Below, piece by piece: positions 5,506 through 60,040 of a DNA stretch of 64,000 bases. Source of the stretch: Mycetohabitans endofungorum (lineage in GTDB: Bacteria > Pseudomonadota > Gammaproteobacteria > Burkholderiales > Burkholderiaceae); contig NZ_CP132744.1 of assembly GCF_037477895.1 (NCBI RefSeq), positions 2,108,001 through 2,172,000 of the forward strand, read 5' to 3'. The translations under genes were made by a program, and so were the position numbers. The notes beneath the pieces are model-generated. The model did no database searches and was not told where the DNA came from. It saw only the letters and a program-made list of their open reading frames with translations. Position 1 is the first letter of the stretch, and every line of letters starts with the position of its first letter.

Positions 5506-5593
<88 letters not shown>

Positions 5594-6047
5594 ACCTCAT
5601 TCTCAATCCTTTGATCTAAAAGGATTTCAAAAAGTTGAATGCTTGTAACTCTGCCCGTGCAAGCAAAATGGCCATCTCGGCCAAAATTAGCCTAAGTCGC
5701 GACGTTCGACCCCATGATTCGGCCGTGCGATAGGCAAAAAACTGGCCTGGCGAGCCGGTTAAAAACGGTCGAACCGTCGCTCAACATGGCGAATGTTTGT
5801 CATTCATGATGCGGCGATGATTTTGGCGCTTAGGCGATGCGCCGAACTTCCGAGAATGTTGTTATGTCTGGCGAGTGCCGATCATGTTCGACGTACTGGC
5901 ATTCTTGTTATGATCGCGGTGCTGCTACGCAACTCGGTTGGGTTCAGAGTGGTGTATGTCTTCTTTGCGGCCGTTCATTACTCGCCTTCGGCCTCGGTTA
6001 CGACAAAATGCAAGTAGCAGGCGATACAGCGCCACCGATGCTGATTG
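5594..6047. other. Gene-poor stretch after tRNA-Ser, no supported gene
   Basis: About 450 bp with no open frame that looks coding in composition or resembles a known protein. It contains an 8-bp stem (AATCCTTT, 5605-5612, with AAAGGATT, 5619-5626) just after the tRNA. There is no T-run after it, so terminator function is doubtful. The first 200 bp look richer in A+T than the flanking genes. It may be the decayed remnant of an insertion beside the tRNA, but no integrase, terminal repeat or second copy of the tRNA end was found. Confidence 0.4.
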
Positions 6048-11100: not shown

Positions 11101-11191
11101 TGGCGGAAAGGGAGGGATTCGAACCCTCGATACGGGAGAACCGTATACCGGATTTCGAGTCCGGCGCATTCGACCACTCTGCCACCTTTCC
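11101..11191 (-). tRNA. tRNA-Ser (anticodon CGA)
   Basis: A 91-nt leftward serine tRNA with acceptor stem GGAAAGG/CCTTTCC, D-arm GTGGCAGAGTGG, anticodon stem CCGGA/TCCGG around CTCGAAA (anticodon CGA), an extended class II variable arm, a GTTCGAATC T-loop and an encoded CCA. It reads UCG codons, frequent in this high-GC genome. It lies 111 bp downstream of serS in the same direction, so the synthetase and one of its substrates are neighbours. Confidence 0.97.
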
Positions 11192-39294: not shown

Positions 39295-40383
39295 TCAGGT
39301 GTTCTGCACGACGATGGTCGGGAACTTCGAACTCATGTCGCGCGACAGCTTCGCAATCCGGAGCGCGACCTGGCGGGCCATGTCGCGATACAGGCCGGCG
39401 ATGCGTCCATGCGGGTCGGCGACCACCGTCGGACGTCCCGCATCGGCCTGCTCGCGGATGCCGATATCCAGCGGCAGACTGCCCAGGAACGGCACGCTAT
39501 ACTGTGCGCAAAGGCGCTCGCCACCGCCAGCGCCGAAGATCGGCTCGGCGTGGCCACAGTGGGAGCAGATATGGATGCTCATGTTCTCGACGACGCCTAG
39601 GATCGGCACGCCGACCTTCTCGAACATTTTCAGACCCTTTCGCGCGTCCAACAGCGCAATGTCCTGCGGCGTCGTGACGATCACTGCACCGGTCACTGGC
39701 ACCCGCTGCGCGAGCGTGAGTTGGATATCGCCGGTGCCGGGTGGCATGTCGACAATCAGATAGTCCAGGTCGCGCCAATTCGTCTGCCGCAGCAACTGCT
39801 CGAGCGCGGACGTGACCATCGGCCCACGCCACACCATCGGATTGTCCTGCTCGACCAGGAAGCCGATCGAGTTAGCCTGTACGCCATGGCCTTCGAGCGG
39901 AATCATCGTCTTGCCATCCTCGGACGCCGGACGGCCGTTGATGCCAAGCATCGTCGGCTGCGATGGGCCGTAGATGTCCGCGTCCAGCACGCCAACCGAC
40001 GCGCCTTCGGCAGCCAGCGCAAGCGCGAGATTTGCGGCCGTGGTGCTCTTGCCAACCCCGCCCTTACCAGAGGCGACCGCGACAATATTGCGTACGTTCG
40101 GCAACAATTGCACGCCGCGTTGCACCGCGTGCGCCACGATCTGGTGAGATACCGTCACGTGCAGATGCGCCACGCCCTGCACGGCGCGCAGCGCTTGTTC
40201 GACACGCGCTTGGATCAGTGCATACTGACTCTTGGCCGGATAGCCCAGCACGACCTCGAGTGATACCGTGTCGCCGTCAATCGCGACGTTGCGCACCCCT
40301 TTGCCCGCCGTTATCGGCTCTGCGGTGTTCGGGTCGATCACGCCGTGCAGCACGGCGTCGATCTGGGCCCTGTCGATTGTCAT
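39295..40383 (-). CDS. apbC: Iron-sulfur cluster carrier protein ApbC (Mrp/NBP35 family)
   Basis: ApbC/Mrp is a cytoplasmic P-loop ATPase that binds and transfers Fe-S clusters. The 362-residue protein, from the ATG at 40383 (MTIDRAQIDAVLHGVIDPNT), has an N-terminal DUF59/MIP18 domain and the deviant Walker A VASGKGGVGKSTTAANLAL. DADIYGPSQPTMLG, YLIVDMPPGTGDIQLTL and the cluster-binding CSHCGH motif (ENMSIHICSHCGHAEPIF) follow. A GGAG ribosome site precedes the start. It is divergent from the OmpA-lipoprotein gene and close to metG, the usual mrp neighbour. Confidence 0.95.
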   Translation of the reverse strand: MTIDRAQIDAVLHGVIDPNTAEPITAGKGVRNVAIDGDTVSLEVVLGYPAKSQYALIQARVEQALRAVQGVAHLHVTVSHQIVAHAVQRGVQLLPNVRNIVAVASGKGGVGKSTTAANLALALAAEGASVGVLDADIYGPSQPTMLGINGRPASEDGKTMIPLEGHGVQANSIGFLVEQDNPMVWRGPMVTSALEQLLRQTNWRDLDYLIVDMPPGTGDIQLTLAQRVPVTGAVIVTTPQDIALLDARKGLKMFEKVGVPILGVVENMSIHICSHCGHAEPIFGAGGGERLCAQYSVPFLGSLPLDIGIREQADAGRPTVVADPHGRIAGLYRDMARQVALRIAKLSRDMSSKFPTIVVQNT

Positions 40384-40701
40384 CGTTGCTCCGTTACTTG
40401 AAGTGTTCCATCCGATCACCCAACGCCTGCCGCGTGCATCGAACCTTGCGTGCGGGGTCGCGTCGAACCTCATACCAGAAGTTGCAAAAAATTGTTGCGT
40501 GGCGTTGCCAAACGGCGCTTCCCGCGGCACGCTCTGCGATCGGCAGCTGTTTCGACATTGTAGTGGCATGAAGCCTGCGATGCTGCGGGCGCGCTCGTCG
40601 GAAGATCACGCTTAAATGCCGCACGCAAGCATCGCTCCCGACGGTGTGCCATGCACATCGTTCTACTATCGGCCCAATCAACCTAACCCATGAGGTGTCA
40701 T
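40384..40701. other. Divergent intergenic region between apbC and the OmpA-like lipoprotein
   Basis: 318 bp separating two divergent genes, so it should hold both promoters. Open frames here translate to nothing recognisable and look like background. I see no strong -10/-35 pair, hairpin with T-run or RNA gene; the ribosome sites lie at its two ends (GGAG before apbC, GAGG before the lipoprotein). Confidence 0.5.
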
Positions 40702-41364
40702 ATGAACGCGAAACTCACCTTCCGCCTTCCGCTGCAAGTGTCGGTCCTCGCAGTCGCAGGCGCGCTGCTGGCCGGCTGCCAGACGCCGCAAGGCAGCAAC
40801 GCGGCGGTTGGCACCGGCGTCGGCGCGGCCACCGGCGCCGGACTCGGGGCAATTTTCGGCGGCAGCAACGGGGCGGCGATCGGCGCTGCGGCCGGCGCCG
40901 CGGTCGGAGGCATCACCGGGTACAACTGGCAGGCGATCAAGCACAAACTGTCGGGTGTCACCGCGGGCACCGGCACCCAAGTGTCCGAGCAACCGGATGG
41001 CTCGCTGAAGCTCAATATCCCGAGCTCGGTCTCGTTCGACACAAATAGCTACGCAATCAAACCTTCGTTCACACTGGTGCTCGACCAGGTGGCGCAGACG
41101 CTGACCCAGCATCCCGAGTTGGTGGCACACGTGGTCGGACACACCGACAGCACCGGCCAGCCGCGGTACAATCAAACGCTGTCGCAAGAACGTGCGCAAA
41201 GCGTCGCGCAATACCTGGCGCAGCATGGCGTCGCCGCGCAACGGCTGGCCGCCGAAGGCCGCGGACAGACGCAACCAATTGCGGACAATAGCACGGAGGC
41301 TGGCCGCGCACAGAACCGGCGCGTGGAGATCTACCTGCGGGCCACCTCACAACCGCGCGGATGA
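40702..41364 (+). CDS. OmpA family lipoprotein with glycine-zipper region
   Basis: A 220-residue outer-membrane lipoprotein. The signal peptide ends in the lipobox LLAGC (Cys26). A glycine-zipper stretch (about residues 37-75, GVGAATGAGLGAIFGGSNG then GAAAGAAVGGITGY) probably inserts in or packs on the membrane. The C-terminal OmpA-like domain (about 105-215) binds peptidoglycan, with ISSVSFDT-like PSSVSFDTNSYAIKP, VVGHTDSTGQPRYNQTLSQE and the final QNRRVEIYL. The YiaD/Pal-like layout suggests a role in envelope anchoring. The start at 40702 has GAGG seven bases upstream. Confidence 0.93.
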   Translation: MNAKLTFRLPLQVSVLAVAGALLAGCQTPQGSNAAVGTGVGAATGAGLGAIFGGSNGAAIGAAAGAAVGGITGYNWQAIKHKLSGVTAGTGTQVSEQPDGSLKLNIPSSVSFDTNSYAIKPSFTLVLDQVAQTLTQHPELVAHVVGHTDSTGQPRYNQTLSQERAQSVAQYLAQHGVAAQRLAAEGRGQTQPIADNSTEAGRAQNRRVEIYLRATSQPRG

Positions 41365-41395
41365 TGCGCCCTAATTTTCTGCCACCGTGATGATT

Positions 41396-41416
41396 GCCGC
41401 CGCGACACGCGGCGGC
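41396..41416 (+). terminator. GC-rich stem-loop after the OmpA-like lipoprotein gene
   Basis: A perfect 9-bp stem (GCCGCCGCG with CGCGGCGGC, 3-nt loop) 30 bp after the stop codon. No T-run follows, so it is at best a pause or mRNA-stabilising 3' structure rather than a canonical terminator. Confidence 0.35.
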
Positions 41417-41483
41417 AGACGGATCGTTGTTAAATCTCGAAATTTTTTCGAACTTCGTAGCTGATTCGATGTCTGTTTATATG

Positions 41484-41562
41484 GTACGTGACGGCGATAC
41501 CGTTGCGTCACCATTCTCCTCTTGTCGTTGTTGCTCCGGGGCTCGAAGCCCCGGTTTTTTTT
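41484..41562 (+). ncRNA. Candidate small RNA with anti-Shine-Dalgarno loop
   Basis: About 75-80 nt in the 363-bp gap between the OmpA-like gene and metG has the layout of a trans-acting sRNA. A 5' hairpin (GTGACG/CGTCAC, about 41488-41511) is followed by a single-stranded pyrimidine-rich tract CATTCTCCTCTTG (about 41512-41524) complementary to Shine-Dalgarno sequences, and a strong intrinsic terminator ends it. A TATATG/TTTATA -10-like box lies at 41476-41483. No ORF is plausible here. The 5' end is a guess. Confidence 0.5.
41536..41562 (+). terminator. Strong rho-independent terminator
   Basis: An 8-bp GC stem CCGGGGCT/AGCCCCGG with a 3-nt loop, followed directly by eight T residues (41555-41562). 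It is too far (170 bp) from the OmpA-like stop to be its obvious terminator, which supports a separate short transcript ending here. Confidence 0.9.
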
Positions 41563-41727
41563 AGCATTGCACGATGACCGCCTGCGCCCGCCAGTCTGCG
41601 GCAAAGCGCGGACAATGTGGGCCCGCGCGTGCTTCGCGCGTCCACTGTCGCGACCGTGTCATCGCAGTCGCGCCTGCTAAAATCGGCGCTCCATCCCGTT
41701 TTCGTCGAATCAAACGCTCTATCCGCC

Positions 41728-43836
41728 ATGTCAGCTCCCGTCTCCGCCGGCGCGCCGCGCCGCATGCTCGTCACCTCCGCGCTGCCGTACGCAAACGGCC
41801 CGATCCACATTGGCCATCTCGTTGAATATATCCAGACCGACATCTGGGTGCGCGCGATGCGAATGCACGGTCACGAGGTGTACTATGTCGGCGCGGACGA
41901 TACCCATGGCACGCCGATCATGCTGCGCGCGCAGTCCGAGGGCATCACGCCGCGGCAGTTGATCGAGCGCGTCTGGCAAGAGCATAAGCGCGATTTCGAC
42001 CATTTCGGCATCTCGTTCGACAATTATTACTCGACGGACTCGGACGAGAACCGGGCGTTGTCCGAGCGCATTTTCACCGCACTCCACGATGCCGGATTGA
42101 TCGCGGCGCGCGATATCGAACAAGCGTATGACCCGGTCAAGGAGATGTTCCTGCCAGACCGCTTCATCAAAGGTGAATGCCCGAAATGCGGCGCGAAGGA
42201 CCAGTATGGCGACAGTTGCGAGGTGTGTGGATCGACGTACCAGCCAACTGAACTGGTCAAACCGTATTCAGTGTTGTCCGGCGCGACGCCGGTGAAAAAA
42301 ACATCGACGCACTATTTTTTCAAGCTGTCCGATCCGCGCTGCGAGACCTTCCTGCGCGGCTGGGTCAGCCAGCTCGCGCAGCAGGAAGCCACCAACAAGA
42401 TGCGCGAGTGGCTCGGCGAGGACGACGACGCGAAGCTCGCCGACTGGGACATCTCGCGCGATGCGCCGTACTTTGGCTTCGAAATCCCGGGCGCGCCCGG
42501 CAAGTATTTCTACGTGTGGCTCGATGCACCGGTCGGCTACTATGCAAGCTTCAAGAACCTATGCGAGCGTCGCGGCTTGGATTTCGACGAATGGGTCCGT
42601 CCGGATTCGACCACCGAGCAATACCACTTCATTGGCAAGGACATCCTGTATTTCCACACGCTGTTCTGGCCTGCGATGCTGCAATTTTCCGGCTACCGCA
42701 CGCCGACCAACGTGTTCGCGCATGGCTTCCTGACCGTGGACGGCACGAAAATGTCTAAGTCGCGCGGCACCTTCATCAACGCGAACAGCTACATCACGAC
42801 CGGTTTGGATCCGCAATGGCTGCGGTACTACCTCGCCGCGAAACTTAACAGCACGATGGAGGACATCGATCTGAACCTCGATGACTTCCAGGCGCGCGTC
42901 AACAGCGACCTGATCGGCAAATACGTGAACATCGCGAGCCGCGCCGCCGGTTTCCTGGTCAAGCGGTTCGATGCACGCGTGCAGGACAGCGCGATGAACC
43001 ATCCGCTGCTGGTCCGGCTGCGCGCCGCGATCCCGACGATCGCGGCGCACTACGAAGGCCGCGAATACAGCCGCGCACTGCGCCAGACCATGGAGTTGGC
43101 GGATGCCGTCAACGCGTACGTGGATGCCGCCAAGCCTTGGGAACAGGCCAAGGATCCCGCCAATGCGGTGGCGTTGCACGAGACGTGCAGCGTCAGCCTT
43201 GAGGCGTTTCGGTTGCTCACGCTGGCGCTCAAGCCGGTATTGCCGAAGCTCGCCGAATCGGTCGAAACATTCCTGTCGATCGAGCCGCTCACATGGGCCG
43301 ACGTCACAGTGCCGCTGTCGTCAGCGCGGCCGATCCGGCCGTACCAGCACCTCATGCAGCGCGTGGACCCCAAGCAGATCGACGCGCTGCTTGCCGCCAA
43401 CCGCCAGTCATTGCAGCCGAACGCGACCACGGCCGCCACCGCGGCGGGCACGGCCAAGTCGTTGGGCGCCAACAACACGTCGGCAAACGGCGAGCGCTTC
43501 ATCACGATCGACGATTTTGCCAAGATCGACCTGCGCATTGCGCGCATCGTCGACTGCAAAGCGGTGGAAGGGTCCGACAAACTGCTGCAACTGACCCTGG
43601 ACGTGGGCGAAGCGAGCACGCGCAATGTGTTCTCTGGAATCAAGGCAGCCTACCGCCCCGAGGAACTGATCGGCAAGCTGACCGTGATGGTCGCGAACCT
43701 CGCGCCACGCAAGATGAAGTTTGGCGTGTCCGAAGGCATGGTATTGGCCGCGTCGGCGGCGGATGAGAAAAAGGAACCCGGCATCTACGTGCTCGAGCCG
43801 CACAGCGGTGCAAAGCCCGGCATGCGGGTCAAATAG
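41728..43836 (+). CDS. metG: Methionine-tRNA ligase
   Basis: MetG charges initiator and elongator tRNA-Met. The 702-residue class I synthetase has the HIGH motif in [15 protein letters not shown] (residues 27-30), and the zinc knuckle [18 protein letters not shown]. The KMSKS motif (341-345) and a C-terminal EMAP-II-type tRNA-binding domain (about 590-702, [19 protein letters not shown]) that dimerises the enzyme complete the long form. An Ala/Thr/Asn-rich linker joins core and tail. The frame is open for 37 codons upstream, but the conserved start is at 41728. Convergent with tamB. Confidence 0.98.
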
Positions 43837-58654: not shown

Positions 58655-58763
58655 AATGTTTTCCTTGTTGTGCGACTGCGCGACGCCCGTCCCCCGCGGG
58701 CCATGCGCTACGATAAAGCGCGGCGTAGCAATCCACGGCCACACCATGCGCTTCGCGCTCTCG

Positions 58764-58985
58764 GCCGGTATCCGGGCTAGCGACGCATCGGCCCGGCCTT
58801 CCCACGCTCTACGCGCAGTGGCACGCACCGCCGTACGCTGACGCATGCGGCGGTGGGCGGTTCGATGTGCAAAAAGCGGGTCGCTTACCGTTGCGGGGAC
58901 AGCACAGGTTGGCCGGTTCGTGGCGAACTTCGCTCCCTGTTTCCCGTTTAACCCCGCGCATGAACCGTGCGCATGGGCACCGAAA
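58764..58985 (-). promoter_or_regulatory. Cobalamin (AdoCbl) riboswitch
   Basis: Read on the minus strand, the conserved blocks occur in order: GGTGCCCATGCGC (5' end), GGTTAAACGGGAAACAGGG, CTGTCCCCGCAACGGTAAGC, GTGGGAAGGC and the B12 box AGCCCGGATACCGGCC (58779-58764). This is the standard cobalamin riboswitch core. It ends about 110 nt before the btuB ATG, and the last segment probably contains the regulatory hairpin. High cobalamin should repress btuB and thereby btuC and btuD. Confidence 0.96.
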
Positions 58986-59118
58986 GTGCCGCAAGTGTAG
59001 GTAGCGCCATGCGAGGCGTCAATGGCCGGAACACGCCGCTGTTACGTCTGGATACGAGCTTAGGCGTCGAATGCCGCCAGAACCGCGCTAAAATGCCGTT
59101 TCTGCAGAGGACGCAACG

Positions 59119-59792: not shown

Positions 59793-59860
59793 GTTGCGCC
59801 ACATTGCGTTGTTTAGGCAGCCTGCGGTTCACGAGCGATACGGCTTATACGTTTTTTGGC

Positions 59861-60040
59861 TTCCCTGCCTGGTTCGCCAAGGTCATAGATTCCTTGAACC
59901 AATGCCATGTGCACGGTTGCGGAAATTTGTAGCATGGGCGTGCGCGTCACTCTGTCTGACGTACCCGAAGTGCTGCTAACTGCGACCAATTCTGAACCTC
60001 AGGTTCAGGATGCCGGCCTAGCGGCCAAGGCGGGGACTTT
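59861..60040 (+). ncRNA. ssrS: 6S RNA
   Basis: 6S RNA mimics an open promoter and binds sigma-70 RNA polymerase in stationary phase. It lies directly downstream of zapA. The 5' segment CCCTGCCTGG (59863-59872) pairs with CCAAGGCGGGG (60025-60035) to close the long irregular stem. The internal part TTCTGAACCTCAGGTTCAGG forms the second inner helix. A TTATAC -10 box at 59845-59850 puts the start near 59860, and a terminator follows at 60047-60078. The size of about 180 nt is right. The exact ends are approximate. Confidence 0.85.

Follow-up and report, generated by a model that had tools for sequence, protein, structure and literature searches.

An ncS16 small RNA gene with a predicted, conserved sigma-E-type promoter downstream of an OmpA-like lipoprotein gene in Mycetohabitans endofungorum

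The stretch of Mycetohabitans endofungorum DNA analysed here (64,000 nucleotides; hereafter the window) contained a 363-bp intergenic gap (41365–41727) between the stop codon of a lipoprotein gene (41364) and the ATG of the next gene (41728), both on the forward strand (Table 1). The upstream gene matched NF053611 (229.8 bits, cut-off 175) and also PF00691, and may start at the ATG at 40702 in place of 40690. The downstream ORF is presumably metG, a name taken from its translation rather than from a family search. A six-frame list showed ORFs of 50–111 amino acids across the gap. The original prediction, made from the letters of the sequence, had described a gap of this length with no ORF, which holds for credible genes; its terminator about 170 bp past the upstream stop codon was found with the stem beginning at 172 nt. 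An Rfam search, one of the checks proposed with that prediction, placed a match to RF02866 (ncS16) in the gap that spanned model positions 1–83 of 83 (E 1.6e-17, cut-off 48 bits), in a genome of 3.55 Mb on two contigs. The element is, to near certainty, ncS16. This sRNA is already on record, so the locus itself is no discovery; what the analysis adds is a conserved promoter of the ECF/sigma-E type. The named Rfam family and this promoter are absent from the original prediction.

Table 1. Coordinates of the ncS16 gene, its parts and its neighbours in the window.
Feature	Position	Strand	Evidence
ncS16 sRNA gene (RF02866), about 79–80 nt	41484..41563	+	Rfam match, 95.5 bits, full length, sole match in genome
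5' hairpin	41484..41512	+	Fold; covariation in 76 loci
Single-stranded C/U-rich tract, CTCCTC core	41510..41535 (about)	+	Unpaired in fold; conserved columns
Intrinsic terminator (stem 41536–41554, eight T 41555–41562)	41536..41562	+	Fold; terminator scan; 99.4% paired cells across 76 loci
ECF/sigma-E-type promoter (predicted)	41450..41476	+	Sequence; conserved in related loci
Upstream neighbour: YiaD-type glycine-zipper/OmpA lipoprotein gene	40690..41364	+	NF053611, PF00691
Downstream neighbour: metG (presumed)	41728..43836	+	ORF
Candidate target site: start of divergent Mrp/ApbC-type gene	40378..40393	−	16 contiguous pairs with 41523–41538

The RNA folded at −27.8 kcal/mol, a value equalled or bettered by 3 of 200 dinucleotide shuffles (z −2.90). 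The 5' hairpin, the open C/U-rich tract and the terminator with eight T all lay where the original prediction had placed them. The terminator scan alone did not exceed chance (2 hits, where shuffles of the 2-kb region lead one to expect 2.0), and 41484–41563 stands above chance because of the RF02866 match rather than that scan. Structural conservation was assessed in a MAFFT alignment (A1) of 76 distinct loci, built without use of the structure from 78 non-redundant loci after removal of L175 (at a contig end) and L179 (without ompA and without such a promoter). In these 76 loci, 93.3% of the cells in the two-stem structure paired, compared with 34–51% when the partners were slid. Changes on both sides occurred in 9 of the 18 pairs, compared with 4.0 in shuffles, and none of 500 shuffles reached nine. 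Two hairpin positions paired poorly, with 30 and 19 of the 76 rows unpaired. The 5' hairpin therefore varies among relatives by compensatory changes, the covariation that had been proposed as a check. The case that was to count against an sRNA, a terminator kept while hairpin and tract are lost, does not apply, since hairpin, tract and promoter are conserved too.

The tract columns of A1 carried 1.4–2.0 bits, most of them 1.8–2.0, in loci most of which had been found by the tract itself. This conservation is partly built in, because the tract or RF02866 served to find most loci and the tract to pick the two sets of 138 rows described below; it was rechecked for that reason on 59 loci chosen by RF02866 alone (mostly best-scoring matches, with weak-scoring genomes picked by hand and L005 left out). 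The identical 31-mer CCATTCTCCTCTTGTCGTTGTTGCTCCGGGG was present in 51 of these 59 loci. The conserved stretch, about 28–31 nt, is longer than an anti-Shine–Dalgarno core. A weak RF02866 match, L178, lacked the exact tract and stood outside the sets of 76 and 138, and had the promoter. Two genomes of 1.9 and 2.3 Mb (L180 and L179, genus g147) contained ncS16-like RNAs that, at 30.2 and 35.6 bits, fall short of the Rfam cut-off and have CTTCTTCTCTTGTTT where the usual tract would be; L180 retained ompA and a GAACTT-GTCTGA promoter, and L179 had neither.

At E ≤0.001, RF02866 matched 204 of the 398 genomes of the family, 200 of them scoring over the cut-off; 11 of 25 genera were represented. Each genome had a single match, except for two of the 204 with two matches each. 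Among 300 genomes drawn from the order there were five matches, four of them within the family. The match outside it (L005 in G010, from another family of the order) was rejected as ncS16, being an RF02278 RNA (65 bits) with a weak RF02866 score (33.5 bits); its recognition by both models indicates that they cross-react. A model joining promoter and RNA (R1) matched 6 of 80 genomes, none of them in a new genus; all six were already RF02866-positive, so it shows no wider spread. The surroundings of the gene were conserved: it was flanked by an upstream ompA and a downstream metG on the same strand in 130 of 138 tract-bearing loci, a set that counts the locus studied here twice (L194 is the second copy). 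Four of the remaining eight loci had ompA only, three had metG only and one had neither.

The predicted promoter consists of a −35 element GAACTT (41450–41455), a 16-nt spacer and a −10 element TCTGT (41472–41476) that ends 7 nt before the RNA start. The motif GAA(A)CT[T/C]-N16/17-TC was found upstream of the start in 136 of 138 tract-bearing rows, which represent 116 distinct sequences, some loci being one genome from two collections (e.g. L149 and L157); this set skips L153 (short upstream DNA), lacks L194 and includes L175 and L179. Shifted controls, taken 200 to 500 nt to either side, had the motif in 0–1 of 133–137 rows. It was present in 57 of the 59 RF02866 loci (all except L173 and L179) and in 75 of the 76 distinct loci of A1, as two conserved islands with a variable spacer between them. 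The −35 variants in A1 were GAACTC (51), GAACTT (17), GAAACTT (7) and GAAACTC (1), and the TC of the GTC island followed 16 nt (70 loci) or 17 nt (5 loci) past the −35. At the −10, TCTGT (32), TCTTT (15), TCTCT (15), TCAGT (7), TCTGA (3) and three others occurred, with TCTGA in three divergent loci (L171, L172 and L180). By itself the motif does not stand out in the genome, where GAACTT-N15..17-TCTG occurred 10 times and its reversed control 13 times. For Shewanella, Pseudomonas and E. coli, the RpoE promoter is given as GAACTT-16/17 bp-TC (PMC4336711). Most ncS16 −10 elements end in T instead of reading TCTGA or TCTAA, which counts against a reading by RpoE; predicted Shewanella RpoE sites include ones that end in GTCTCT and GTCTGT (PMC4336711). 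The start-site study gives no sigma-specific motifs (PMC4603805), and the ncS16 literature surveyed, confined to papers outside subscription, contained no mention of an RpoE link.

The genome encodes RpoE (TIGR02939, 325.9 bits, cut-off 236) with an RseA_N protein beside it (36.7 bits, cut-off 24), as well as a second ECF factor (NF006550, 284.4 bits). PF08281 matched six times in the genome, two of these matches having an assigned identity. A GAACTT-type site was not found around the genome's own rpoE. As a control, the region upstream of rpoH was inspected in 22 genomes of the family. Nine had a site with an ncS16-like −35 and spacer, in which TCTAA immediately precedes TTAGCACT (GAACT[T/C]-N16-TCTAA; L199, L200, L202–L205, L208, L211 and L219); of the other 13, three had a site elsewhere and ten had none. 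In Mycetohabitans itself, the rpoH site next to TTAGCACT was degenerate. Eight further control loci, first called rpoD-like, are sigma-70-family paralogues with a length more like that of rpoS, and none of the eight had such a site. We take TTAGCACT to be half of a CIRCE element, and the adjoining sites suggest that rpoH may be under joint control of RpoE and HrcA. In Bordetella, SigE was reported to transcribe an rpoH promoter in vitro (PMC3490749).

The closest described relative is ncS16 of Burkholderia cenocepacia, also named Bc_KC_sr1 and RIT32 (PMC10987360), with which the Mycetohabitans gene agrees in the full-length family match, the upstream ompA and the size (79–80 compared with 83 nt). 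Relative to the RF02866 model, the Mycetohabitans copy is one base shorter in the hairpin and two bases shorter in the terminator loop. In strain J2315, ncS16 is 83 nt long and begins within the ompA 3'UTR at a dedicated transcription start, as documented by dRNA-Seq, RACE (3' end) and Northern blot (PMC5688073). Its level rose in biofilm (6.1-fold), stationary phase (3.9-fold) and starvation (6.6-fold), and did not change significantly with glucose medium, osmotic stress, low pH or low iron (PMC5688073). The targets predicted for it by Sass et al. were rich in outer-membrane and envelope genes (PMC5688073). RIT32 was 27-fold down in Caenorhabditis elegans infection, and no virulence effect of its overexpression was detected (PMC10175445).

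Because the ncS16 promoter has the form that RpoE reads, the most likely course of events is that envelope stress or growth arrest would free RpoE from RseA and that the freed RpoE would transcribe ncS16. The single-copy gene, on the 3' side of the OmpA-like lipoprotein gene, is most probably transcribed from a promoter of its own, and the RNA ends at its own terminator. Through its unpaired tract, and probably with help from Hfq at the U-tail, the RNA may pair with the translation starts of chosen mRNAs and so repress them; we consider repression by such pairing likely. The non-canonical −10, the control counts, the missing site around rpoE, the degenerate rpoH site of the genus, the second ECF factor, the four other PF08281 matches, the lack of an osmotic response, target tests that do not favour outer-membrane mRNAs and the silence of the surveyed literature on RpoE reduce our confidence in RpoE control of ncS16 to somewhat better than even. 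We infer by analogy that ncS16 may work in the sigma-E response as MicA, RybB or MicL do in E. coli, a likeness of function rather than of sequence relationship that depends on the predicted RpoE-type promoter. The genome has the RpoE and anti-sigma factor genes that such a system needs, and the agreement of the promoter is at the level of sequence. E. coli MicL itself starts inside the 3' part of cutC (PMC8103513). The conserved promoter points to RpoE as a candidate regulator of ncS16, whose family has no known function; if RpoE does read it, ncS16 would be tied to the stress response served by MicA, RybB and MicL, which would help to explain its rise in biofilm and stationary phase. In its broadest form, this reading makes ncS16 the sRNA component of the response of Burkholderia and near relatives to envelope stress through sigma-E, kept at one genomic place in at least 11 genera and acting with about 28–31 near-invariant bases on a fixed set of mRNAs, and for this form we see the balance as even.

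Possible targets were sought by complement searches and by pairing with leaders, the gene starts of the porin and window leaders being chosen by script. The 10-nt sequence exactly complementary to the core, CAAGAGGAGA, occurred in the Mycetohabitans genome only at ncS16 itself; the reversed control pattern was also absent from that genome, so this absence is weak evidence. In the genomes of two relatives there were 2 and 4 further sites, and the control gave 0, 2 and 3 across the three genomes. A search of four genomes for 18-mers nearly complementary to the tract, with at most three mismatches, was rejected as a source of targets: every genome had its own ncS16, G364 and G255 each had one further site with three mismatches, and the reversed control gave 1, 1, 1 and 3. 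The leaders of ompA (120) and metG (111) paired with the tract no better than with shuffled tracts. Taken together, the tests did not single out outer-membrane mRNAs.

It is possible, if on the doubtful side, that another sigma factor reads the promoter, whether the second ECF factor or an activator-assisted sigma-70. ncS16 would still be a real sRNA transcribed on its own, but one that answers growth arrest and not envelope stress. The second ECF factor, the four other PF08281 matches, the −10 that is non-canonical for RpoE in most loci and the reported unresponsiveness of B. cenocepacia ncS16 to osmotic stress all favour this explanation, whereas a sigma-70 scan gave no site at the start (hits only at 41144 and 41656) and the conserved GAACT and GTC islands match RpoE promoters. 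Another explanation, that 41484–41562 is no more than the 3' end of the lipoprotein mRNA, would fit an RNA start 120 nt past the stop codon on the same strand. We rejected it as the sole origin and hold it to be very improbable, given the dedicated start in B. cenocepacia (PMC5688073) and the conserved hairpin, tract and promoter. The same conservation, with the mapped start, RACE end and Northern blot of the family in B. cenocepacia, bears out the part of the original prediction that called the element an independently transcribed sRNA.

Its other part, a generic anti-Shine–Dalgarno action on very many mRNAs like that of the toxic RF02278 sRNAs, was not established by pairing in the window and appears unlikely to us. 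ncS16 does have its CTCCTC core in an open tract, and has in common with the double-hairpin RF02278 sRNAs (ncS03, ncS05, ncS27 and ncS62) a C/U-rich anti-Shine–Dalgarno sequence and a U-tailed terminator hairpin; a weak RF02278 alignment fell at the same place. However, this alignment scored 19.6 bits where the cut-off is 50, the CU stretch of ncS16 is a single open tract and conservation reaches far past the core. Pairing was somewhat better than expected for 30 porin leaders, those with loci among 139 porin matches (8 of 200 shuffled tracts bound as well), but for the 47 leaders of the window the tract had no advantage over its own shuffles, 24 of 200 of which paired as strongly. The best of the window sites points to a possible role in iron or Fe–S homeostasis, in which ncS16 would repress, in its own genus, the adjacent gene for an Mrp/ApbC-type Fe–S carrier. 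The 16 contiguous pairs cover the ribosome-binding site and start codon of this divergent gene, a match that 7 of 600 shuffled tracts equalled on the 47 leaders, and the pairing was kept in nine rows of the genus (duplicates of the same genomes included). According to two reviews, iron depletion induces Bc_KC_sr1 (PMC10987360, PMC6321483), but qPCR in J2315 was reported as unchanged at low iron (PMC5688073). Moreover, the pairing was found post hoc among many leaders, three of the 16 paired bases also belong to the terminator stem, and the site was absent from the 133 rows of other genera. As it is confined to the genus, the Mrp/ApbC pairing is a lead and no more, and this role seems to us quite improbable.

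Other Rfam matches in the window were a cobalamin riboswitch (58746–58999, −), a 6S RNA (59859–60040, +) and two tRNAs (11104–11191, −, and 5506–5590, +). A second GAACTT-N17-TCTG site, which may be due to chance, lay at 5844–5870 (+), about 250 nt past a tRNA gene.
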